A stretch of DNA of 20,319 bases, from IMG/VR virus record IMGVR_UViG_3300042987_001852, positions 1 to 20,319 of that record. One strand, given 5' to 3'. This document shows, one piece after another, positions 1 to 11,841 of this stretch. Every line of letters begins with the position of its first letter. Positions within the stretch are counted from its first letter, which is position 1. The position numbers and the translations under genes are program-made. The stretch comes from a virus. The notes below the pieces were generated by a model, which was given only the letters and a program-made list of their open reading frames with translations, did no database searches and was not told where the DNA came from.

Positions 1-2021
1 GGATCAAGGCCGTAAGAGACAAAAAGCTCGGCTTCGGTTGTTTCTTCGGCTTTTAATCGCACATGCTCAAGGATATGCTTGTGCAAAGTCATTGCTGCCA
101 TGGGTTGAGCCTGCAACATAGGCGATAAACCCATCATCAAGTGTGATGCAATGTGCGCATCGTGCTGTTGGCCCGCAAACGCCTTCAATTCCATCGTATC
201 CAACACGTCTGCGTTCTCTTGCGCAGGATCCTTGGGCATTTGAGTGCGCTGCGGCTTCAAAATGCTGTCGATATCGCGCACATTCATCGCAGAATATACT
301 CGATAATAAGCTTCATACAAATTATGCATCTGAGGGGCCGACTGAGCCATCTGCAATTGCATTTGCGCCAGTGTTAAACGCTGAGCTGATGAGAAAATGT
401 TGGGATCTGAAACCGGTTGCACGGCAACAAGGTTGTTGAAATCCGCTTTCTTGATTTTTCTTGACGCTCCAGGCACGTCATAAGGGTATTCATCGGGTAA
501 ATACTGCCCAAAGCCCTGGGCCAAGAGCTCAAATTCTTCTTTCAACGCGTAGTGCAGCCGTTTGTGGATGGCCGACATGACCTGCGTGCCGCGTTCAAGC
601 AGTGCAAGGGTCGTTCCGACCTGCGCCATCTGGTTGCCTTCGCCTACTTGCATGTCAGCGATGCTTGCCAAGCGTCTTCCGGCATCCACACAAAAGCCAA
701 GCAGGGCAAAAAGCGTCTGCGAGGGCTCTTTATAAGGCAAAGGCAGCATGTTTTGCTGCAATTCCGCCCCACCCACGTCAATATCGCGCCATTCTCCGGG
801 CTGAATCGGATTATCCTGGTCCGCGATCCTTGCGCCTTTGGCCTTAAAGCCCGCTGGAAGGTTAGAAAGCGTCCCCGCATCCAACAATTGACGCAGTGCA
901 GAGGTTGCCGTCTTGGAAAGGCCACCAATTAAATGCACAAAACCCAAGCCGTACGACCCAAGGCCCTCGATTAAGACGTAATGCACAAAATAATTACGCC
1001 GATTCTTGCGCTCGTCGTCCTCTTTCCAGTTCCTACGCACGCCAATGACGCGTTTTGTAGCTTCATCCAACGTAATCACATACGGCAGCTTGATCCCCGT
1101 GGGCTCTCCCTTGTCATCTTTGTCCTCGAACCCTGGTAAATCGTAGTCCACCTGGAATTCAAGCAAAAAAATCTCTTCCGGTGCGCCTGTTTCCACGACA
1201 CCCGTCTGCTTATCGACCTGATAACGAATCTGACTTGCATCTGAAGGGTAGAGTTCACCCTCAACAATGACATCCAAGTACTCGCCTGCGACCACGCGCT
1301 TGCGATATTCGTTGGAATCCATCGCAATACGGTGCGTGATCCGTGGGCATTGGCTCATGACGCTTGATCCGTAATACGGAATAAACACGTCGTCTGCCAA
1401 AACAAGCTTGGAAACCATCCGCCCAAGCTGCTCGTCGTAGTAAACCTTCTTAAATACCGACCCGCCGTAGCCCAAATAGAACATCGCCTGATCAAACTCG
1501 GGCGTATATTCCTTCATGACCGTGGTGATCTGGTAATTCATGAAGTCCTGCACGCGTCCAGCCTGCTGGAACTTGTCCAAGGTCTCTTTGCCCAGGATCT
1601 CCGTGCGCACAGGACCGCCCGCTGGCATCAATTCCTTGGTCGCTTGGGCCTGAAACTGGACCACGGCCTCCATCAACAAGGGGTGAGTCGCCGCTGCCGC
1701 ACCTCGAAAGGGCTTGGTGCGCTCTTGAAAGTTCATGCCTAAGAGCTCAAGGCCCTTGGCATAGGTCTGCTCCCAGTCAGAACGGCTTGACTTATCCGCT
1801 TCAAAGAAGGCCGAGAGGTCTATAGCGATCTTGGATAACGTGTCCTCGTCCACGACTTCTGCCAGATTGGCATAGAAATCCACCTCGTTATCGTCTTCTT
1901 CCCCGATTTCGACCGTCGCTCCACCGTCCTCATCAAGAATAATCTCAATTTCAGGCATATTCTCCTGATCGATCTCGATCGATGTGGCAGGGGCTTCGTA
2001 GAGGGATTTGTCGATGGGCAT
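1..2021 (-). CDS. Phage portal protein (P22-like), C-terminus cut by window edge
   Basis: The minus frame is open from the ATG at 2021 to the left edge, giving 673 residues. The portal forms the dodecameric ring at the capsid vertex through which DNA is packaged and ejected. The N-terminus is acidic. It is followed by a segment with RTKPFRGAAAATHPLL and then FQAQATKELMPAGGPVRTEI, which I recognise from large podovirus-type portals. The middle has DDVFIPYYGSS and KLPYVITLDEATKRVIGVRR, and the later part is helical and Gln/Met-rich, as expected for the stem, wing and barrel. The start is supported by AAGGA 7 nt upstream and lies 14 nt after the stop of the 839-residue gene, so the two are co-transcribed. 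Missing residues lie beyond position 1. The P22-like assignment rests on length and these segments and was not checked by alignment. Confidence 0.82.
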   Translation of the reverse strand, partial: MPIDKSLYEAPATSIEIDQENMPEIEIILDEDGGATVEIGEEDDNEVDFYANLAEVVDEDTLSKIAIDLSAFFEADKSSRSDWEQTYAKGLELLGMNFQERTKPFRGAAAATHPLLMEAVVQFQAQATKELMPAGGPVRTEILGKETLDKFQQAGRVQDFMNYQITTVMKEYTPEFDQAMFYLGYGGSVFKKVYYDEQLGRMVSKLVLADDVFIPYYGSSVMSQCPRITHRIAMDSNEYRKRVVAGEYLDVIVEGELYPSDASQIRYQVDKQTGVVETGAPEEIFLLEFQVDYDLPGFEDKDDKGEPTGIKLPYVITLDEATKRVIGVRRNWKEDDERKNRRNYFVHYVLIEGLGSYGLGFVHLIGGLSKTATSALRQLLDAGTLSNLPAGFKAKGARIADQDNPIQPGEWRDIDVGGAELQQNMLPLPYKEPSQTLFALLGFCVDAGRRLASIADMQVGEGNQMAQVGTTLALLERGTQVMSAIHKRLHYALKEEFELLAQGFGQYLPDEYPYDVPGASRKIKKADFNNLVAVQPVSDPNIFSSAQRLTLAQMQLQMAQSAPQMHNLYEAYYRVYSAMNVRDIDSILKPQRTQMPKDPAQENADVLDTMELKAFAGQQHDAHIASHLMMGLSPMLQAQPMAAMTLHKHILEHVRLKAEETTEAELFVSYGLD

Positions 2022-2035
2022 GCTAGGTCCTTGGA

Positions 2036-4555
2036 TCAAGCGTGAGCTTTGATGAATGCTGTTGTTTTGTCAACGGGGCCACCGCGTTTGTAACCGTAAG
2101 CCTTGTATTTACGCAAAAGCTCAGTAAGTTCCTCTTGTGTAACGTACTGAGGGATCGTAGCGTTTTCTGCCTTCATTGCCGCAGCTAGATCGCTGCCTCG
2201 ATCAATGGCAAATAAATTCGCGTTTAGTAAGTCTTTTACTTCCGACCAATTGCCGCTGCGCACAAAGTCTTGAACAAATGGAAGAAATTCTTTTTTTATT
2301 GCCTTATTGCCCTCTCCCTTGATTTGAGTAATCATTGCTGGACGACTTTCAATAACGCGATTCATCGCCTCATCGTATGCAATTCGACCTTCCGGGCCTT
2401 GGAGTTTGCTAGACCCAGGCTGAAACCGCTCCATCTCGGCAACGATTGCCTTATTATCCAAAGGTGTGGATATGTCATGTTTTACTTCGATGGTTGCATG
2501 CGACTGTCCTTTTGCGTCGCGCAGTGAATATACCTTAGCTTCACCGCTTTGTATCGCCCCCCAACCTCCCAGGCCGTAAAAGGGGTTTCCTCCCTTTTCC
2601 GGAGGTTCGTAGCCGCGTACCGAATGACCCATGGCATCCGACTCAGCAGCAAACTGCCCAGGTTTATTAAGCTGGATCCAACGATACTTCTGTTCTGGAT
2701 AAGCCTTGTAAAGATCGGCTTTGTTCGTTTCCTCGATGGCAAGCGCTTTTTTATTGTTGATCCGCCAATTATTAATCTTGGCTACACGCTCAACGGCCTG
2801 CGGTACGGTCATTTTCTCAAGGTCTTTGGGCTGTACACGCAACGCATCGGGCAGGTTCGATTGCGGGCTCATGGCGTTGGTTAACTCATCAACAAGATGG
2901 TCAAAGCCTAGCCCAGATGTAATATCCGAATTTAACTTCATGCCATAAACTGGCGTGTCTGGCGCTACTTTTCTCAACCAAGGATTCCTTTCCATCTCAC
3001 TTTTAATTGGAAAGAATACCGCAGCATCATCGGGTTGTATGCTCAGATCTGCAAGCGTCTCCCAGTCTTTGGCGAGATTAGACTTGCCCAGGCCTTCTGG
3101 TGGATATTTGGCACCCTCTCTGTTTAACTTCAACAAACGCATTCGAGCTTCCTCGTACCCACCTAAAGATCTAGGAACGTCTTGATTTTGCGTGTCAAAG
3201 TGCAATATATCTCTTTCCGCCAGCGCCCGAACGGGATCCTCGGGGGTGGCCATTTCGTTCTTGACATACTTCGTAAGCTTGGTGTCAATCCACTTGTTAA
3301 TTGCTGCCGCAGGCTTTAACTCAGCGTAGGCCCTTTCGACCTGAGCCAAGGACTCTGGGCTAAGTCTTGCCATAGCCTCCGGCGTATAAGTCGCATTCAT
3401 TTCCGCGAGTACTTGATCAGCTGGCAGACCACGAGCGCCAGCGGTTCTTTTGAGCGGCTTCAGCGCTTGCTCAGCCGAGAAAAGTCCAGCAAGCCAATTT
3501 CCACCCTTGGGCTTGATGACCCCTGCTCCACCTAGAGCCGCTAGTGCGGTTGCTGCATCCCCGGCCATACCAGCAACCTTAGCGGGCATGACTCCTGAAC
3601 CAACCGCTTGTCCTGTGCGATAGCCTTCGCCTCCAGGAATAATGGGCGTTGCACCAAGCACGCCTCGGGGCATGTCCGCAAATTCTTTAAGCAGCTCTAT
3701 TCCCCGCTGATCTTCGCCATACCCTTTTAACTGCGAAGCCCGCAAGCCTTTAGTAAACCCAGTACGCTGGGGCGGTTGTTTCGAAGCATCGAGCCGATTG
3801 AGCATGCGCTGCGATTCGCTGCGGATCTCTTCGCGCTCGTCAATGACACTAGGAACTTCGTCGGGGTTGGGGGAGCCTTGGGCGAACTTGGCAACAGGAC
3901 GATCCTTTTGACCAATACGTCCTAGATTAATAAGAACATCGCGACCCGTTCCAGGAGGAATCTTTTCTCCTGCGTACTCCCGGATCATGCCGTAAGGCCC
4001 AAATGCACCATAGTCCCCGGTCCGTGCCTCACGCATATCTTGCAACATGGGCGGATTAAAATCATACTTATCGACGACCTGTAGGTTACCTTTAGGATCC
4101 GTCCTATAAGAAAACCGCCCTAGCGTGGTCTGTATATTGCCTAGTGGATCACCCATGGAAAAAAGACTTGGGGTAAAGGACATAGGCATGGGACCATCTT
4201 TGCTCAGCTTTTGAGCTAAGGCAACATAGTCCCCGTAGGTAATCGATCCCTTATCCGATCCTTTAAGTGCAATAAGCTGACGGATAGCGTCCAACTCCTC
4301 GGGCTTAAAGTTCTTCTCAGTAATCGGTGTTTTTACCCCTTGCGCCGTTTCCAAAAGGGTTCGCCCCGATGTTGGAAACCACTCAGGATTGAGCTTTTGA
4401 GCGATGAAATCCACCACACGGTTCATGCCCGTGACTTCCGGGGCCTTGTCCTTGGGTGATGTTTCACGTGAAACATCTCCACCGTTGGATTTTTTTACGA
4501 TAAACTCCTCGGTGCTTGCCTCACCGCCCGCGTTTTTCTTAAGGGGTTTTTTCAT
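2036..4555 (-). CDS. Large virion-associated protein with PcfJ-like C-terminal domain (839 aa)
   Basis: This gene lies between the repeat protein and the portal in the late block, so a virion or ejected internal protein is the best inference. Residues 1-40 are basic/polar and contain D27-S33, encoded by a perfect parS palindrome. Residues about 65-170 hold TTLGRFSYRTDPKGN and DKYDFNP, a pattern I associate with phage structural proteins. Residues about 535-610 contain YGMKLNSDITSGLGFDHLVDEL and PQAVERVAKINNWR. Residues about 625-790 hold MGHSVRGYEPP, then KVYSLRDAKGQSHATIEV, then ITQIKGEGNKAIKKEF. This order resembles the PcfJ-type domain (HCV.GY, I.SLR, TIEV, Q.KG.GN), but the usual Cys after His is Ser here. 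No Shine-Dalgarno site precedes the ATG, which lies 5 nt after the upstream stop, so translation is probably coupled. No enzymatic activity is claimed. Confidence 0.75.
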   Translation of the reverse strand: MKKPLKKNAGGEASTEEFIVKKSNGGDVSRETSPKDKAPEVTGMNRVVDFIAQKLNPEWFPTSGRTLLETAQGVKTPITEKNFKPEELDAIRQLIALKGSDKGSITYGDYVALAQKLSKDGPMPMSFTPSLFSMGDPLGNIQTTLGRFSYRTDPKGNLQVVDKYDFNPPMLQDMREARTGDYGAFGPYGMIREYAGEKIPPGTGRDVLINLGRIGQKDRPVAKFAQGSPNPDEVPSVIDEREEIRSESQRMLNRLDASKQPPQRTGFTKGLRASQLKGYGEDQRGIELLKEFADMPRGVLGATPIIPGGEGYRTGQAVGSGVMPAKVAGMAGDAATALAALGGAGVIKPKGGNWLAGLFSAEQALKPLKRTAGARGLPADQVLAEMNATYTPEAMARLSPESLAQVERAYAELKPAAAINKWIDTKLTKYVKNEMATPEDPVRALAERDILHFDTQNQDVPRSLGGYEEARMRLLKLNREGAKYPPEGLGKSNLAKDWETLADLSIQPDDAAVFFPIKSEMERNPWLRKVAPDTPVYGMKLNSDITSGLGFDHLVDELTNAMSPQSNLPDALRVQPKDLEKMTVPQAVERVAKINNWRINNKKALAIEETNKADLYKAYPEQKYRWIQLNKPGQFAAESDAMGHSVRGYEPPEKGGNPFYGLGGWGAIQSGEAKVYSLRDAKGQSHATIEVKHDISTPLDNKAIVAEMERFQPGSSKLQGPEGRIAYDEAMNRVIESRPAMITQIKGEGNKAIKKEFLPFVQDFVRSGNWSEVKDLLNANLFAIDRGSDLAAAMKAENATIPQYVTQEELTELLRKYKAYGYKRGGPVDKTTAFIKAHA
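4458..4477. promoter_or_regulatory. parS: Perfect parS-like palindrome (ParB centromere site)
   Basis: The 20-bp sequence GATGTTTCACGTGAAACATC is a perfect inverted repeat. Its inner 16 bp (4460-4475) is identical to the canonical parS consensus TGTTTCACGTGAAACA bound by chromosomal ParB in most bacteria. It lies in the coding sequence of the 839-residue gene, about 80 bp after the ATG, and reads D-V-S-R-E-T-S in frame. The chance of a given exact 16-mer in 20 kb is roughly 5 in a million. No ParA or ParB gene is visible here. Identity to parS is seen directly; use of host ParB is inference. Confidence 0.85.
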
Positions 4556-4560
4556 GGATG

Positions 4561-7383
4561 CTATGGTGGGGGTTGGTCGTTACTTGTTCCACCCGTTACG
4601 GTGTCAGTGGCTGTCTTGGTGGTGTCAGTAGCAGGTGCGGCGGCTACAGTGGTACGGTCCGCGACCAAAGCGTCCGCAGCGGCGGCTACCTTACTGGGGT
4701 CAACCGGATCGCCAAAGGCCCCTGCCCGCGCCTGATTCATGAGTCGATAGTACTCCGGCGTGGTAATCTTCTTACCAGCAAGACCTGAAGAAAGGGCAAG
4801 TAATAGCTTCCTTCTTGCCTCAGCGTTCAAGGAACTGGCTGAGCCTGCGGTCGTGTAGGTATTCGTTGCTGCATTGTAATCCGGCTGCTCGCCTTCCCCG
4901 TACTGCACATTCAAGAGCGTACGCGGACGGGATGTCACCACGGGGGGCGTCCAACTTAGCCCACTGCCCGTGGAGCTTTGAATTGAGGCGGCGGGCGCGT
5001 AAGTAAAGGACCGTGTCACAGGGTCCCAGGTCCGTTGCGAACTAGCACGGAACTTTGCATCAACTGCTGGGACGTTGATCGCGGACACGGCTCTTTCTTT
5101 ACTATCCGGCAACTTAATGCCTTCAACAAGCTCATCAAGCGTAGGATAAGGACCAATTGAAGGTGGAAGCGGAGTGAGTGTCGGGGAAAGTGTTTTTGGA
5201 TCAGGGACTTTCTGCTGTGCGTTATAAAGGGATAAGACAAAGTTGTAAATATTCCCTGCTTGCGTAGCCAACGGTGAAAGCGTGCTGTTAGTTGAAGCCC
5301 TGCCTGAAAGATGTATGTACTGGTTTAAGTAATCTTGTAGCAACGATCTTGTTATTGAGGTATCAGCATTTGGCAACCCAAGATACCCTGGGGCTGATTG
5401 GTACTTTACGCTGTTATCCCCGTATGTCGCCATCCGGTCAAATGGGTTGTAGTACGCCCCTAAGTTCTGAGCAGCAAGATAAAGGTCTGCCCCTGTGGCG
5501 TTTGGAGCGCCTGCAATATAATTGTTAAACGCTGTTGTGAACTGGTTAAACGTTGCATTCGGTGCATTAGGGGTTCGATAACTATATCCCCCATAAGTAA
5601 AGGTTTTGGAGAACGGGTCGTAATTAACGCCTAAGTCTGTAGCCCTATTAACGAGTGTTTCGCCCGTCAGATTTTTACCCCCCGTTACAAGACCACCGAC
5701 AATGCCTTGAAACTCACGCTCCGTAGGCGTGGGTGCAGTGGCCGCTGTGTAGGATAAGTCACCTCGTGTAACAGTCTGTGTAAACGGGTTATATGTAGCA
5801 CCAATGCTTGAAGCCGCTTGTGATGCCGTGGTGGCGGATACTCCGGGTGTTGCAGCTAGATACGCATCAACATCGCTTTGAAACTCTTGTTGTGTTACAT
5901 CCGGAAGCGCAGCATTTCTATAAGTAAACCCGCCAAAAGTCACTGTGTCAGTGTAAGGATCAAATGTGCCACCGACACTTGACGCCGCCTCACGGGCTTG
6001 CGTTGCAGTCAGCCCAGGTGTTGATTGCGTATATCGATCGACAAAAGTCCCTAGTTCTTGGTTGCTGGCAATCTTTGGGGCATTGGCCGCTGTATAAGAA
6101 ACATCACCAAACGAAACAGTCTGGTTAAACGGGTTATAGAAGCCTCCTATGCTTGTTGCCGCTTGCGCCGCTTGCGTAGCACTCACCTTAGGGTTGGCTG
6201 TAAGGTAATCGTTGACAATGTACGAAAGCTGGCTTTGTGTAGGACCAGGGGCTTTTGGAGCATCAAAGCTAAACCCACCAATGCTCGTTACGCCTGTAAA
6301 GGGGTCATAGGTACCCCCTACACTTTTTGCTGCGGCTGCGGCTTCTTCTCCCGTGGCATTTGGATTAGCTGCAAGCCAATCCTTCACCGCAGTTTCAACA
6401 GAACTTTGCGTCCAAGGGTTACTGCCCTCTGCAAACCGCTGAACAGGTATCGCGTCTAACATACGCCGAGAGGCAGTAATCTCGCCACCTTGAGCCTTTC
6501 TCACCAAACCAGGAATCGCCGTCCCATAACCCGTGGACTGGTAACCCGTGGCAATAGACCCTGTGGGGTCACTCGCTGCGCCCTGCAATAATGTCCGTCG
6601 AACAGGGCTAATGGTCCGAGGTGCATTGATCCCGGTCATGTCTACCGTCCTTGGTTGAATCATTGGTTGTCCTTGGGCCGTGGCCGGTGCAGCATCTCCC
6701 GTGTACCTACCTGTTACTTGAGCCATCGGAATGGCAGAAGGCATCTGCTCCTGGGACAACGCGGCATACCGCATTCTTGAAGATGGAAGCGAAAAAACCT
6801 GCCGAGAGGCAATACCTCCTTGAGCCATTTTTACAATCCCGTACTTACCTTCAAGGGGAAATGCCCCTTGCCCTGCGCCCGTTGACGGGCTTCGTGCATT
6901 AAAGGCGCTTCCTCCAGGGTAACTAGGGGGAGGCTGGAATGACTGTTGCATGGGCATTTGAAACGATTGCGGCATTTGAAACGATTGCGGCATTTGAAAC
7001 GATTGCGGCATTTGAAACGATTGCGGCATTTGAAACGATTGCGGCATTTGAAACGATTGCGGCATTTGCTGCATTTGCAACATAGGGCTGGCCTGTTGCA
7101 TGAGCACCTGAGGCATGGCCAACGATGCCCGCGTGTTCATTGCCCCGCCAAAAGGAGAAGAAGGAGCTTTAGCCATTGCTGATTGCGTAGGGGCGGAGAC
7201 CATGCCCTGCAACTGCATCATCTCCTGTTCTATTTGCCGACGAGCTGTTGCGTCAGCTATTTGTTGCTCAGCTGTCAAACCTGGACCCCGGTAGTCCATG
7301 GTCATGGCATTTGGTGACGGCATCCGTTCAGGCCTGCTTCCAAAATTATTTAAATAGTCAAAAATATTGTTTGATGTCGTCAT
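4561..7383 (-). CDS. Repeat-rich virion protein, six ~57-residue modules (940 aa)
   Basis: This follows the terminase gene and precedes the 839-residue gene. The ATG at 7383 is preceded by AGGGGA. Residues about 100-145 are Met/Gln-rich and include a perfect FQMPQS hexapeptide tandem. Around residues 184, 294 and 316 are short MAQGG, KAQGG and RFAEGS motifs. Residues about 320-665 hold six degenerate modules of about 57 residues with the pattern (D/N)xYLxxxPxxSATxAxxAAxSIGGxYxPFTxTVxxGxxSYxxxxAP. The C-terminus is Ala/Thr-rich and ends in PPP. There is no signal peptide or clear membrane segment. I do not recognise a family with known function. Position in the late operon and modular architecture suggest a structural, tail or adhesin-like protein, but this is inference. 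Confidence 0.72.
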   Translation of the reverse strand: MTTSNNIFDYLNNFGSRPERMPSPNAMTMDYRGPGLTAEQQIADATARRQIEQEMMQLQGMVSAPTQSAMAKAPSSPFGGAMNTRASLAMPQVLMQQASPMLQMQQMPQSFQMPQSFQMPQSFQMPQSFQMPQSFQMPQSFQMPMQQSFQPPPSYPGGSAFNARSPSTGAGQGAFPLEGKYGIVKMAQGGIASRQVFSLPSSRMRYAALSQEQMPSAIPMAQVTGRYTGDAAPATAQGQPMIQPRTVDMTGINAPRTISPVRRTLLQGAASDPTGSIATGYQSTGYGTAIPGLVRKAQGGEITASRRMLDAIPVQRFAEGSNPWTQSSVETAVKDWLAANPNATGEEAAAAAKSVGGTYDPFTGVTSIGGFSFDAPKAPGPTQSQLSYIVNDYLTANPKVSATQAAQAATSIGGFYNPFNQTVSFGDVSYTAANAPKIASNQELGTFVDRYTQSTPGLTATQAREAASSVGGTFDPYTDTVTFGGFTYRNAALPDVTQQEFQSDVDAYLAATPGVSATTASQAASSIGATYNPFTQTVTRGDLSYTAATAPTPTEREFQGIVGGLVTGGKNLTGETLVNRATDLGVNYDPFSKTFTYGGYSYRTPNAPNATFNQFTTAFNNYIAGAPNATGADLYLAAQNLGAYYNPFDRMATYGDNSVKYQSAPGYLGLPNADTSITRSLLQDYLNQYIHLSGRASTNSTLSPLATQAGNIYNFVLSLYNAQQKVPDPKTLSPTLTPLPPSIGPYPTLDELVEGIKLPDSKERAVSAINVPAVDAKFRASSQRTWDPVTRSFTYAPAASIQSSTGSGLSWTPPVVTSRPRTLLNVQYGEGEQPDYNAATNTYTTAGSASSLNAEARRKLLLALSSGLAGKKITTPEYYRLMNQARAGAFGDPVDPSKVAAAADALVADRTTVAAAPATDTTKTATDTVTGGTSNDQPPP
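5395..6420 (-). repeat. Six-fold protein-level module array inside the 940-aa gene
   Basis: Six consecutive modules of 55-59 codons each begin with a helix-like segment and end with a GG/GD-x-(S/T)Y hairpin-like element. Examples of the core are VGGTYDPFTGVTSIGGFSF, IGGFYNPFNQTVSFGDVSY, VGGTFDPYTDTVTFGGFTY, IGATYNPFTQTVTRGDLSY, LGVNYDPFSKTFTYGGYSY and LGAYYNPFDRMATYGDNSV. A degenerate seventh trace, WDPVTRSFTY, lies further towards the C-terminus. The modules have diverged at nucleotide level, unlike the 18-bp array in the same gene. Confidence 0.85.
6955..7068 (-). repeat. Perfect 18-bp tandem repeat, 6.3 copies
   Basis: The unit CATTTGAAACGATTGCGG (plus strand) is repeated six times without mismatch from 6955 to 7062, followed by six more bases of a seventh copy. 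It is in frame and encodes a repeating FQMPQS hexapeptide. Perfect identity points to recent expansion by slippage or recombination, so copy number may vary between relatives. Confidence 0.97.
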
Positions 7384-7426: not shown

Positions 7427-8914
7427 TTAGTAGTACTCAAACTCAAGCTGCGTGACGGGGTCATCCGCTTCGTCATCATCCAAGGCCACAAAATTCCCCG
7501 CACGAAAACGCATAATCGCTTGCACCGTGCTATCCACAAGATCGTCCGAGTCGCCCTTGGGGAACGCCGCACACTCCTCAATCAACTCTTCAGCCCACTT
7601 CGTCTCCGGGGCCCAGACCATCCCAGACTCAAACACAGGCGCTACTGCATTGGCCCTGGATATCTTATCCTGGCCCGCCCTTCGTCCACCTGGATTGTAC
7701 ATCGTCACAGGAATCCCAACACGCCTTAACTCCTGCTGCAACGTAATCCCCGTTGCCTTGCCCTCAATCAACACATTATCCGGTCGCCAATGATCGTACT
7801 GCGCCTTGGCAACCCGCTTTAACTCCGGAAAGTCCCAGCGGCCTTTTTTAACATCGAGGAGAATAATGGCAGGTCCGTCGTCCGCGCTGGGACGGAATAC
7901 ACCCCAGGTGGTGATTGCTGAAAAGTCAGCTGTCTCTTTTTTGCTGTACGCGGTGTCATAACTCTGGATGATATATTCAACTTGGGGGGTGTAATCATTT
8001 TCCCAAATCCTCCACCATTCACGCTTTAAAATCGCCCCCTCATCATTCGTGGGCTGCTGCTGATACATCGACTGCCACTTCTGCACCGACAAGGTGGCCC
8101 TGACCTTTTGTAACTCATCAAGGCTCCAGTAACTCGGCCAAAGGGGCTTCTCCTCCTCCGTGTTCTCATTCAATATCGCCGGGAACTCCAAAATCTCCCA
8201 CTGATCCGACTTGGGCTCGGCCTGCGCTTTGAGCAAACGCGCCGTCAAATCTTTCATGCCCCATCGGGTCATGACCACCACTACAGCCCCTCCGGGCTGC
8301 AATCGCGACCTCGGCCCCGATGTGTACCACTCCCAAGCGTTGTCAAGCGACAACTCCGACAAAGCATCCTGCTCCGAATGCGGATCGTCAATAATCAAAA
8401 GATCCGCCCCACGCCCCGTCATTGCACCACCAACCCCCACAGCATAGTATTCCCCGCCCCCATTCGTATCCCACCTGCCAGCTGCCTTTGAATCAGGCTT
8501 CAAACTCACCGCCGGAAACAACTCCTTATACGTCTCCTGATCCATCAGGTTCCTAACCTTACGGCCAAAACGCACCGCTAACTCCCCATTGTGCGTCGCT
8601 TGAATGATCTTGGACCGAGGCTCATGGCCCATGGCAAACGCAGGCAAAAGGTAGCTAGCAAATTCCGACTTGGTGTGTCGAGGCGCCATGTTGATAATCA
8701 ACCGCTTTAACTCGCCCCTGACAATCCGGTCAAAAGCATTCGCCATCTTTTGATGATGCGCACTAAATATCGCCTCGGGCCAGACATAACGGGCGAAATC
8801 TATGAAAGAAGCCTTGGCCTTGTCCCGAGCCTCAAGGATCCTGAGCCGTAGCTCAAGCTTCAAGCGTTCTGCTTCAAGGTCCGGGGGTAGGGCCATAGGT
8901 TTTGGAATTTGCAA
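7427..8914 (-). CDS. terL: Terminase large subunit (ATPase + nuclease)
   Basis: This is the motor that pumps DNA into the prohead and cuts the concatemer. The N-terminal ATPase shows a Walker A-type motif MAPRHTKSE (residues 76-84), Walker B LLIIDD (172-177) and the coupling motif MTRW (215-218). The C-terminal RNase H-like nuclease shows SYDTAYSKKETADFSAI with Asp near 320, an acidic LIEGKATG (E384) and GDSDDLVDS (Asp 455-458). At 495 residues it has the usual length. The start is uncertain: 8914 is a TTG with no clear ribosome-binding site, and an ATG six codons in (8896) gives MALPPDLEAERL and is equally possible. It heads the virion block and follows the G-rich non-coding stretch. Confidence 0.95.
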   Translation of the reverse strand: MQIPKPMALPPDLEAERLKLELRLRILEARDKAKASFIDFARYVWPEAIFSAHHQKMANAFDRIVRGELKRLIINMAPRHTKSEFASYLLPAFAMGHEPRSKIIQATHNGELAVRFGRKVRNLMDQETYKELFPAVSLKPDSKAAGRWDTNGGGEYYAVGVGGAMTGRGADLLIIDDPHSEQDALSELSLDNAWEWYTSGPRSRLQPGGAVVVVMTRWGMKDLTARLLKAQAEPKSDQWEILEFPAILNENTEEEKPLWPSYWSLDELQKVRATLSVQKWQSMYQQQPTNDEGAILKREWWRIWENDYTPQVEYIIQSYDTAYSKKETADFSAITTWGVFRPSADDGPAIILLDVKKGRWDFPELKRVAKAQYDHWRPDNVLIEGKATGITLQQELRRVGIPVTMYNPGGRRAGQDKISRANAVAPVFESGMVWAPETKWAEELIEECAAFPKGDSDDLVDSTVQAIMRFRAGNFVALDDDEADDPVTQLEFEYY

Positions 8915-9103: not shown

Positions 9104-9163
9104 GATACCGGGACTCGCCCCGGGGGACGGGGCCCAGGAGCCGGGGACCATGCGAGCCGAGCC

Positions 9164-9233
9164 GGGGCCCGGGGCCAACGGGACGGGAGCCGGGGCCATG
9201 GCCCGGGGCCCGGGGAGCCCGGGCAACGGGGGG
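9164..9233 (+). other. Two canonical G-quadruplex motifs
   Basis: On the plus strand, 9164-9187 has four runs of at least three G with loops CCC, CCAAC and AC. At 9205-9233 four runs are separated by CCC, AGCCC and CAAC. Interspersed C runs mean that GGGCCC hairpins compete with the quadruplex. Transcription towards the terminase gene would place C-rich sequence in the RNA and G-rich sequence on the non-transcribed template side. Confidence 0.55.
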
Positions 9234-10012: not shown

Positions 10013-10062
10013 TCGGGCTCGGGCTCGGACCTATTAAGCCGGGACGGGCTCGGGCTCGGACG
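10013..10062. repeat. GGGCTC hexamer arrays flanking a stop codon
   Basis: The 17-mer CGGGCTCGGGCTCGGAC occurs at 10013-10029 and again at 10046-10062. The right copy encodes the SEPEP tail of the DUF932 protein and the left copy lies just beyond its stop codon, next to the terminator. This looks like a small duplication of the gene end. Confidence 0.8.
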
Positions 10063-11074
10063 CGAAATCAGCCGTGAGCATTTCAACGGCTCGGGCCTTT
10101 AATGCTCCCCCGGTCCCAAACCATGCGGATTCAATGCGGGTATTGTTTGAACGTCCCCGGCTATGGTCCACCATTTCAGTAACAGCGTTAAGCATGCCCC
10201 ATCGGGTACCCGTTACCCCGGGGATATCCGAGCCAATAGCCGAGCCATTGAAAAGCCGCATGATTTCCCTATAGCCTTTCGTTTCGTCGATCGGTTTTTT
10301 GCTTGTTTGGTACGGCTCAAGCAATTGCCGCACAAATTGATCGGCTTCCAATGCTCCCATTGGGACCGTTGCAAGCATGCGGGAGTCTATTAAAAACTTT
10401 TCCCATGCTCCCGCGACAATGCCCAACTGAAGCCGGACGGCTTGCGGATCAAACTTTTCTGAATGCAAAACCCGAACGGCTGATTTGAGATATCCCTTAT
10501 CGGTTTCGGTTTCACCCTTAATAACGCGTCCCCCGGTATATCCACCTACTGCCGCTGTGATGGTGTTATTACATACCACGCGGATTGCTGTAAACTTTGC
10601 AACGGTTGCCATGGTCCCATCATAGGACGTGCCAAGCAATAAATAGGGCCTTACTAGGTCCCCATCAATCACGGGAGCCCCATCGGATACCCGAGCAAGT
10701 GCCCAAACCCTTTTTCCGTCCGACAATGCCCCGGCAGTCTCTAGTTCAAAACCCCCGATATCCGTCAGCGTCCGGAAAAACTCCATAATCTCCCCCGGCT
10801 GTACCACGTTATAGCTTTTGCTCACAACGGCTAACGGGGCCCCGTTATCGCTACGATGCAAAACTTTACGGTCAGCCCAAACTTGGTGGCCCGTAACTGC
10901 CGGGGTTACGTATTCCACGGCTGACTCAAGCACGGTATAACCGAGCCCGGCTTGTTGCGTCCAAGTTTCAATGCTCGCCCCCGGGGTTAAAGCATGACCT
11001 AAGCCGTGCCACGGCTCGGATCCAACATAAGCCATTGCCGCACGTCCCGTTGATAAGTCAATCATATGAGCCAT
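10034..11074 (-). CDS. DUF932 / TIGR03299-type phage-plasmid protein (346 aa)
   Basis: The N-terminus (AMAYVGSEPWHGLGHAL) is typical of the DUF932 family, as are the following VSKSYNVVQPGEIMEFFRTL, the central VCNNTITAAVGG and the C-terminal part with TEMVDHSRGRSNNTRIESAWFG. The family is common on phages and plasmids and its biochemical role is not established. At 346 residues it is complete. The ATG at 11074 has AGAAAGGA about 8 nt upstream and its own promoter at 11127-11156; a terminator follows. It is a self-contained transcription unit inside the late region. The tail is a low-complexity EPEP sequence produced by GGGCTC repeats. Confidence 0.85.
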   Translation of the reverse strand: MAHMIDLSTGRAAMAYVGSEPWHGLGHALTPGASIETWTQQAGLGYTVLESAVEYVTPAVTGHQVWADRKVLHRSDNGAPLAVVSKSYNVVQPGEIMEFFRTLTDIGGFELETAGALSDGKRVWALARVSDGAPVIDGDLVRPYLLLGTSYDGTMATVAKFTAIRVVCNNTITAAVGGYTGGRVIKGETETDKGYLKSAVRVLHSEKFDPQAVRLQLGIVAGAWEKFLIDSRMLATVPMGALEADQFVRQLLEPYQTSKKPIDETKGYREIMRLFNGSAIGSDIPGVTGTRWGMLNAVTEMVDHSRGRSNNTRIESAWFGTGGALKARAVEMLTADFASEPEPVPA

Positions 11075-11126
11075 TTCAGTATTCCTTTCTGGTTTGGACC
11101 GAGCCCCATCGGCTCGGCTTGCGACA

Positions 11127-11156
11127 ATTATAGGCTGAAATTATTTTACTTTGCAA
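11127..11156 (-). promoter_or_regulatory. Sigma-70-like promoter for the DUF932 gene
   Basis: On the minus strand, TTGCAA (11156-11151), an 18-nt spacer and a perfect TATAAT (11132-11127) precede the ATG at 11074 by about 50 nt. The -35 overlaps the last codons of the upstream 231-residue gene; no terminator is seen between the two. Confidence 0.75.
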
Positions 11157-11841
11157 GTCCTAGGTCTCCGGCAATGTGATGGCGCAATTTTGAACCCGAG
11201 GGCAATTGCTTAGCAAAGGCCACAATGGCCTTTGCATCGTCCGGCTTGCCAGTTTTTCTTGTCGCATGCCATTGGATCGCAACATGCCCGTTAGCGGCAT
11301 AACATCCGCCCCCATCGTCCAATCCTACTTTGGCCTTACCCGTACCGTGAGCCACAAAGACAATTACATAATCCCGATCGGGACGGGCACATAAGGGCAT
11401 GCCGTTGCCACAATCGTTGCAAGTAAAATTGTCGGACAATTCAGCCGGACAACGGACGAAACGCGTCCCATCAACGTTCAAAGGCCATCGCTCGGCCGTA
11501 TCAACGGGAGCCGCAAAAACTGCCGGGACGCCTAAACTCACGGCATGCTTTGCTTCAGCAATAGAATCGCATGATGCGTTAAAAACCGATTGCCCGGGCT
11601 CCCATCGGGGCAAGCTTTCGGCGGGAAAATGCGAGTAAAGCCAAGCAATGCCGTTATCGGGTACGGCATGCTTTACGGCTTCCATATATTCAGCATCAAT
11701 CAAATCACCCCCATGTTCGGCTTTCGGATTGAGCGCGCAAGTTTTCGGACATGTTGCGAAAGTCTCATGCTCCCCGGCTCGATAAGTTACGGCAATCGGT
11801 CCGGTTTTGCCATTGCTTGATTTTGCTACAGTTTTCAACAT
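11146..11841 (-). CDS. Cys-rich phage/plasmid protein of unknown function (231 aa)
   Basis: The product has a CPKTC pair near residues 31-35, FNASCDS near 90 and GVPAVF near 105. A second cluster follows with RCPAE, CNDCGNG, PLCARPDRDYVIVFVAHG at about 130-170. The spaced Cys pairs suggest a metal-binding site, zinc or an iron-sulphur cluster. The overall order resembles a family found on phages and plasmids (I believe DUF7227, related to mycobacteriophage gp88-like proteins), but this is from memory. The ATG at 11841 has AGAAAGGG upstream and a strong promoter at 11895-11922. It lies next to the DUF932 gene, in the same accessory block. Confidence 0.7.
   Translation of the reverse strand: MLKTVAKSSNGKTGPIAVTYRAGEHETFATCPKTCALNPKAEHGGDLIDAEYMEAVKHAVPDNGIAWLYSHFPAESLPRWEPGQSVFNASCDSIAEAKHAVSLGVPAVFAAPVDTAERWPLNVDGTRFVRCPAELSDNFTCNDCGNGMPLCARPDRDYVIVFVAHGTGKAKVGLDDGGGCYAANGHVAIQWHATRKTGKPDDAKAIVAFAKQLPSGSKLRHHIAGDLGLAK

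Follow-up and report, generated by a model that had tools for sequence, protein, structure and literature searches.

The window, by which we mean the whole stretch of DNA analysed here, is a 20,319-base IMG/VR virus record. Its minus strand carries terL, a 940-aa ORF, an 839-aa ORF, and the portal gene, in this order. The features of the locus are as follows.

3..2039, minus strand: portal protein (phrog_1216), truncated by the window end
2036..4555, minus strand: 839-aa PcfJ-like ORF, with parS in codons 27-32 of a linker-like N-terminal part
4458-4477, no strand assigned: perfect 20-bp palindrome GATGTTTCACGTGAAACATC, the core of which (4460-4475) equals the consensus bacterial parS
4561..7383, minus strand: 940-aa repeat-rich ORF between terL and the PcfJ-like ORF, without a family match
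7427..8914, minus strand: terminase large subunit (TerL); the sites of the family gather around terL
9150..9175, minus strand: empty counterpart of the intergenic parS of two relatives (L004 and L181), with the junction at ~9162/9163

Genes and palindrome of the window

The portal and TerL group the window with the HTVC023P-type pelagiphages and the lake phage DSL-LC04; both proteins are homologous and the gene order matches, as in members of the HTVC023P-type podovirus group. The original prediction had described the 839-residue gene as a phage virion gene. This is unsupported, as its homologues in L012, L024, and Phage DSL-LC04 match PcfJ (PF14284), and a Pfam search with the window's own 839-aa protein returned no match. 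Near the N terminus of the 940-aa ORF, MPQSFQ is repeated in tandem about six times. Upstream of terL, positions 10034-11841 (minus strand) encode DUF932 and DUF7227 proteins, which have counterparts in relatives.

A scan of the window found an exact match to TGTTTCACGTGAAACA at 4460-4475, nested in GATGTTTCACGTGAAACATC, and the palindrome with its canonical 16-bp parS core is exactly as originally described. TGTTTCACGTGAAACA is given as the consensus parS, and the ParB–parS crystal structure used a 20-mer identical to GATGTTTCACGTGAAACATC (PMC7383237). With a 16-bp match to this consensus, for which tolerated variants are also accepted, the site is a bacterial chromosomal parS by sequence. 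It is the only site in the window with three or fewer mismatches to parS, and dinucleotide shuffles of the window gave a mean of 0.12 sites at this threshold. The site lies ~80 nt inside the 839-codon ORF and forms codons 27-32 (D-VSRET), which confirms the in-frame position noted originally.

Recurrence and conservation of the site in relatives

Relatives were gathered with three queries (the 839-aa protein, the portal, and TerL). In the clade set of 49 contigs (522 kb), TGTTNCACGTGNAACA occurred 52 times in 35 different contexts (10 + 10 nt flanks) and the runner-up palindrome of the same design 5 times; these site counts are not independent because the contigs are related, and the sample is not blind because the portal and TerL queries were taken from parS-bearing contigs. 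Twenty distinct clade contigs span terL to portal, on the criteria of a TerL identity of at least ~85% and the presence of a portal; each of them has one site or more in the interval from the terL start to the portal. Those clade contigs in which the site is missing either contain no more than 1.7 kb upstream of the portal or have no portal. The number of sites per clade contig ranges from 1 to 4, and one site per genome is common. The sites occupy several non-homologous places, namely, an N-terminal linker, a mid-gene linker, and a position 78 nt before the portal start, occupied in relatives by a second parS. Their positions have therefore turned over. In short, parS has reached fixation in the window's clade, as far as this was sampled, but has a patchy distribution elsewhere. 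The picture of one isolated site holds for the window alone; across the lineage, the site is a shared trait with shifting positions.

Variation among the clade sites is confined to positions 5 and 12 (Y/R only) and position 16 (A or G), the positions that also vary in bacterial parS. The sole one-mismatch variant of the clade has G at position 16, and the Myxococcus parS consensus TGTTCCACGTGGAACG has the identical end base (PMC3899335).

The scan of IMG/VR found exact parS in at least 120 contigs; a single control palindrome of matched composition was found in 10. Of the 120 listed parS contigs, 40 encode a relative of the window's TerL or portal, as opposed to none of the 10 control contigs. 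In the 33 listed family contigs with a TerL match, which average 7.5 kb, 16 of the 46 exact sites are located within 200 nt upstream of terL. Exact parS is also present in 80 listed viral contigs outside the family (L026-L142). Among these non-family contigs, ParB_N was matched in only 3 of 50 tested, and in a raw tally the ORFs closest to the site frequently encode terminases or head-tail adaptors.

More distant relatives carry the site in noncoding DNA as well, so that the search for further parS copies proposed originally gave a positive answer. In relatives with ~72% TerL identity, noncoding DNA contains [AG]GTT[TC]CACGTG[AG]AACA ~100 nt upstream of terL, and the flanks of this site differ. 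L004 and L181 share a one-mismatch intergenic parS, TGTTTCACGTGAAACG, ~300 nt upstream of terL, and the ~52-nt intergenic segment that bears it is missing from the window. Arrays of 3-5 exact parS are found in three very distant relatives (TerL ~27%). L041 (2657-3444) has five exact sites within ~1.5 kb upstream of terL. Of the five sites of L068 (10535-11462), four occupy the 1 kb ahead of terL, and the fifth sits at the beginning of the terL frame and is translated there in a different register (MFHVKH). The clusters of L041 and L068 each fit within 1 kb. In L077 (240-961), the exact parS cluster is 3-4 kb upstream of terL. These clusters resemble small chromosomal centromeres. The cultured lytic pelagiphage HTVC027P (PMC12753301) has a one-mismatch site, CGTTTCACGTGAAACA, between convergent genes ~4 kb from terL in the portion of the record examined; no parS site was found in the examined portion of the HTVC023P record or in Phage DSL-LC04.

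In the marine relatives (599 kb, a set that includes contigs already known to carry parS), 14 parS were found versus none for each of 200 composition-matched palindromes. A site near terL was present in 3 of the 59 marine contigs with enough upstream sequence, and two of these three came from the parS scan itself. Universal presence of the site in marine relatives is therefore false. As a separate observation, the TerL frames of L242 (5938-8535) and L283 (8765-11362) have an in-frame insertion after PRHA (PRHTKSE motif) that includes LRGLMDTDG; this insertion resembles an intein that harbours a LAGLIDADG homing endonuclease.

What is conserved could in principle be a fortuitous 16-mer, a peptide, a DNA structure, or the DNA sequence itself. 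A lone site in a single window is compatible with luck, but the family-wide recurrence, at 52 sites in 522 kb versus 5 for the runner-up, together with the IMG/VR and marine controls, refutes a chance occurrence, to which we assign a negligible probability. Protein-level constraint, or a shuffled linker peptide motif of the form GGxV[SP]R[EG]TS, would account for the single reading frame shared by all clade sites within long ORFs and for the shuffling of linker segments between proteins. However, the long clade ORFs contain 36 distinct V[SP]R[EG]T motifs, every one of them coded by parS and none seen in other codons; codon usage predicts such coding at ~1e-3 per unrelated instance. The S/P and E/G swaps are nonconservative, yet they preserve parS. 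Moreover, intergenic sites and sites in other frames refute a peptide motif, which is thus highly improbable. The homologue comparison proposed originally, palindrome against residues alone, is decided for the palindrome. The site that precedes the portal start by 78 nt is represented by 13 distinct sequences, in which the motif changes only at the Y/R positions, whereas the residues upstream differ widely. The closest relatives of the window have synonymous changes directly before the site, which is itself unchanged. The sequence is maintained by selection at the DNA level. A hairpin or cruciform was rejected, because the asymmetric coding-strand variant TGTTCCACGTGAAACA breaks the dyad, and base pairing is therefore not what is kept.

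Candidate reader and possible consequences

The domain searches detected neither ParB nor ParA in the window, which bears out the original remark on their absence. ParB_N is absent from the window and from 112 of the 113 further family records; the exception (G009, L156) has a 432-aa open frame with ParB_N in a record that has no parS site. None of 18 large or complete relatives, among them the complete HTVC027P, HTVC023P, 023Pt_psg01, and DSL-LC04, has HTH_ParB, ParA-type AAA_31, or tyrosine integrase (PF00589). The nearest large sequences to the window's own species are contigs of 55 and 50 kb. The searches found no self-encoded phage or plasmid ParABS, with parA and parB near the centromere, and the 18 large genomes lack the tyrosine integrase gene that would mark an integrating temperate phage.

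No tRNAs, which were sought for host assignment, were found in the large relatives. The only match to a bacterial genome is the portal (71%) on a contig of a Verrucomicrobia metagenome-assembled genome (MAG), a weak indication as phage contigs are often mis-binned; another contig of this MAG has two TGTTCCACGTGGAACA sites. A link to the replication origin was also considered and rejected: the cumulative GC skew was unipolar in four of six long sequences, and none gave a usable origin.

Because ParB_N was confined to the siteless G009 among the family records searched and HTH_ParB and AAA_31 were absent from the 18 large genomes, host ParB is most likely the reader of the phage parS. Against this, a phage protein of an unrecognised fold could be the reader, and most marine relatives have no site near terL. 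Here, we propose that the palindrome is probably a true parS kept by the phage for the chromosomal ParB of its host; host ParB binding and any consequence of it are inferred from the sequence. On infection, host ParB would bind the phage parS and form a closed, CTP-dependent clamp that slides along the neighbouring phage DNA. The terminase–portal region would thus bear a ParB cluster as a substrate for host ParA and, in hosts whose ParB recruits SMC, for SMC as well. A single exact parS should suffice to load ParB. The original proposal that parS recruits host ParB has passed the sequence tests (palindrome kept, further copies, no phage ParB or ParA found); its interpretation overall survives in the parS inference, is unsupported for the virion gene, and is too narrow in the isolated site.

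As to the consequence, established knowledge of ParABS indicates that ParB loaded on parS would let ParA move or anchor the genome. Our tentative preference is for positioning or partitioning of the phage genome in slow or stalled infections, by which both daughter cells would stay infected. The latent period of HTVC027P is ~18 h (PMC12753301), so partition through host division could pay. Partitioning is ranked ahead of two other consequences of host ParB binding, both doubtful, whose weights lie inside the same explanation. Replicating phage genomes may outnumber the few chromosomal parS and titrate ParB, disturbing host segregation or division; this would need no phage protein and would suit the site numbers, which are 1-4 on a clade contig and reach five in distant relatives, but one site per genome is common and titration does not require clustering around terL–portal. 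ParB spreading from the site might instead repress the terminase–portal operon early in infection and delay the late genes, as the location at terL and portal would allow. In Pseudomonas aeruginosa, some parS sites are flanked by genes that ParB represses, but the other bacteria tested are reported to show little or no such silencing (PMC5521831), and the HTVC027P site is far from terL. Alternatively, host ParB would play no part and the site would serve as the operator of a DNA-binding protein encoded by the phage, which would control the late operon or packaging and whose recognition of parS would have arisen by convergence or descent. The sites of many relatives do cluster just upstream of terL, a possible place for a late promoter, and L041, L068, and L077 have arrays of 3-5 sites. 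The large genomes, however, encode no ParB_N or HTH_ParB protein, the variation matches bacterial parS exactly, the sites of the window's clade are inside coding DNA at varying places, and that of HTVC027P is between convergent genes ~4 kb from terL. We thus consider a phage operator unlikely, less so than either chance or a peptide motif and more so than any of the three consequences of host ParB binding.

ParB–parS is among the most conserved bacterial segregation systems, and a phage in need of partitioning usually encodes its own partition genes. It seems somewhat more probable than the reverse that an abundant freshwater and marine lineage without detectable ParB, ParA, or tyrosine integrase adopted the host centromere and moved it repeatedly around the terminase–portal region, and that the host ParB–CTP clamp marks these phage genomes like host origins. 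Lake-water phages and some marine relatives would then probably borrow host ParB. If true, this would represent a general 'stolen centromere' strategy in which 16 bp are enough for a phage to take over chromosome segregation, and it would suggest how phages without a detectable integrase could persist through host division. The strategy may be wider still, as hinted by viral contigs outside the family in which exact parS is often close to a terminase gene. The positions of parS make these genomes natural probes of ParB spreading and action outside the origin.

Comparison with known systems

HTVC027P, HTVC023P, and Phage DSL-LC04 (58-62 kb) share the order terL–(PcfJ-like or unknown)–portal–GroES–capsid with the window group, and their TerL and portal are homologous to those of the window. 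parS is unmentioned in the main text of the publications checked on HTVC023P-type pelagiphages and DSL-LC04, and the literature searched, the coverage of which is incomplete, contains no report of parS in these phages.

The phage-plasmids P1 and N15, mycobacteriophage RedRock, and cyanophage Mic1 also have a parS-type centromere on the phage genome. Unlike the window family, they encode their own ParA/ParB. The centromere of RedRock consists of an 8-bp repeat that is present eight times at each parS locus and that of Mic1 is a different palindrome, and both are thus unlike the parS of the window.

The phage sites are like bacterial chromosomal parS in the 16-bp consensus and in the tolerated positions 5, 12, and 16, and they too are sometimes present in several copies within ~1 kb. 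They differ in their location around terL–portal, not beside parAB or a known replication origin, and in that no ParB or ParA gene was found alongside.

A precedent for host ParB as the reader is provided by Bacillus phage phi29, the DNA of which is described as being entrapped in spores by the host Spo0J (ParB) (Meijer et al. 2005, as cited in PMC9437464). From this description, phi29 is likewise a virulent phage whose DNA is handled by host ParB. It is a small Bacillus phage unrelated to the window lineage, which differs in having exact consensus sites and visible DNA-level selection.
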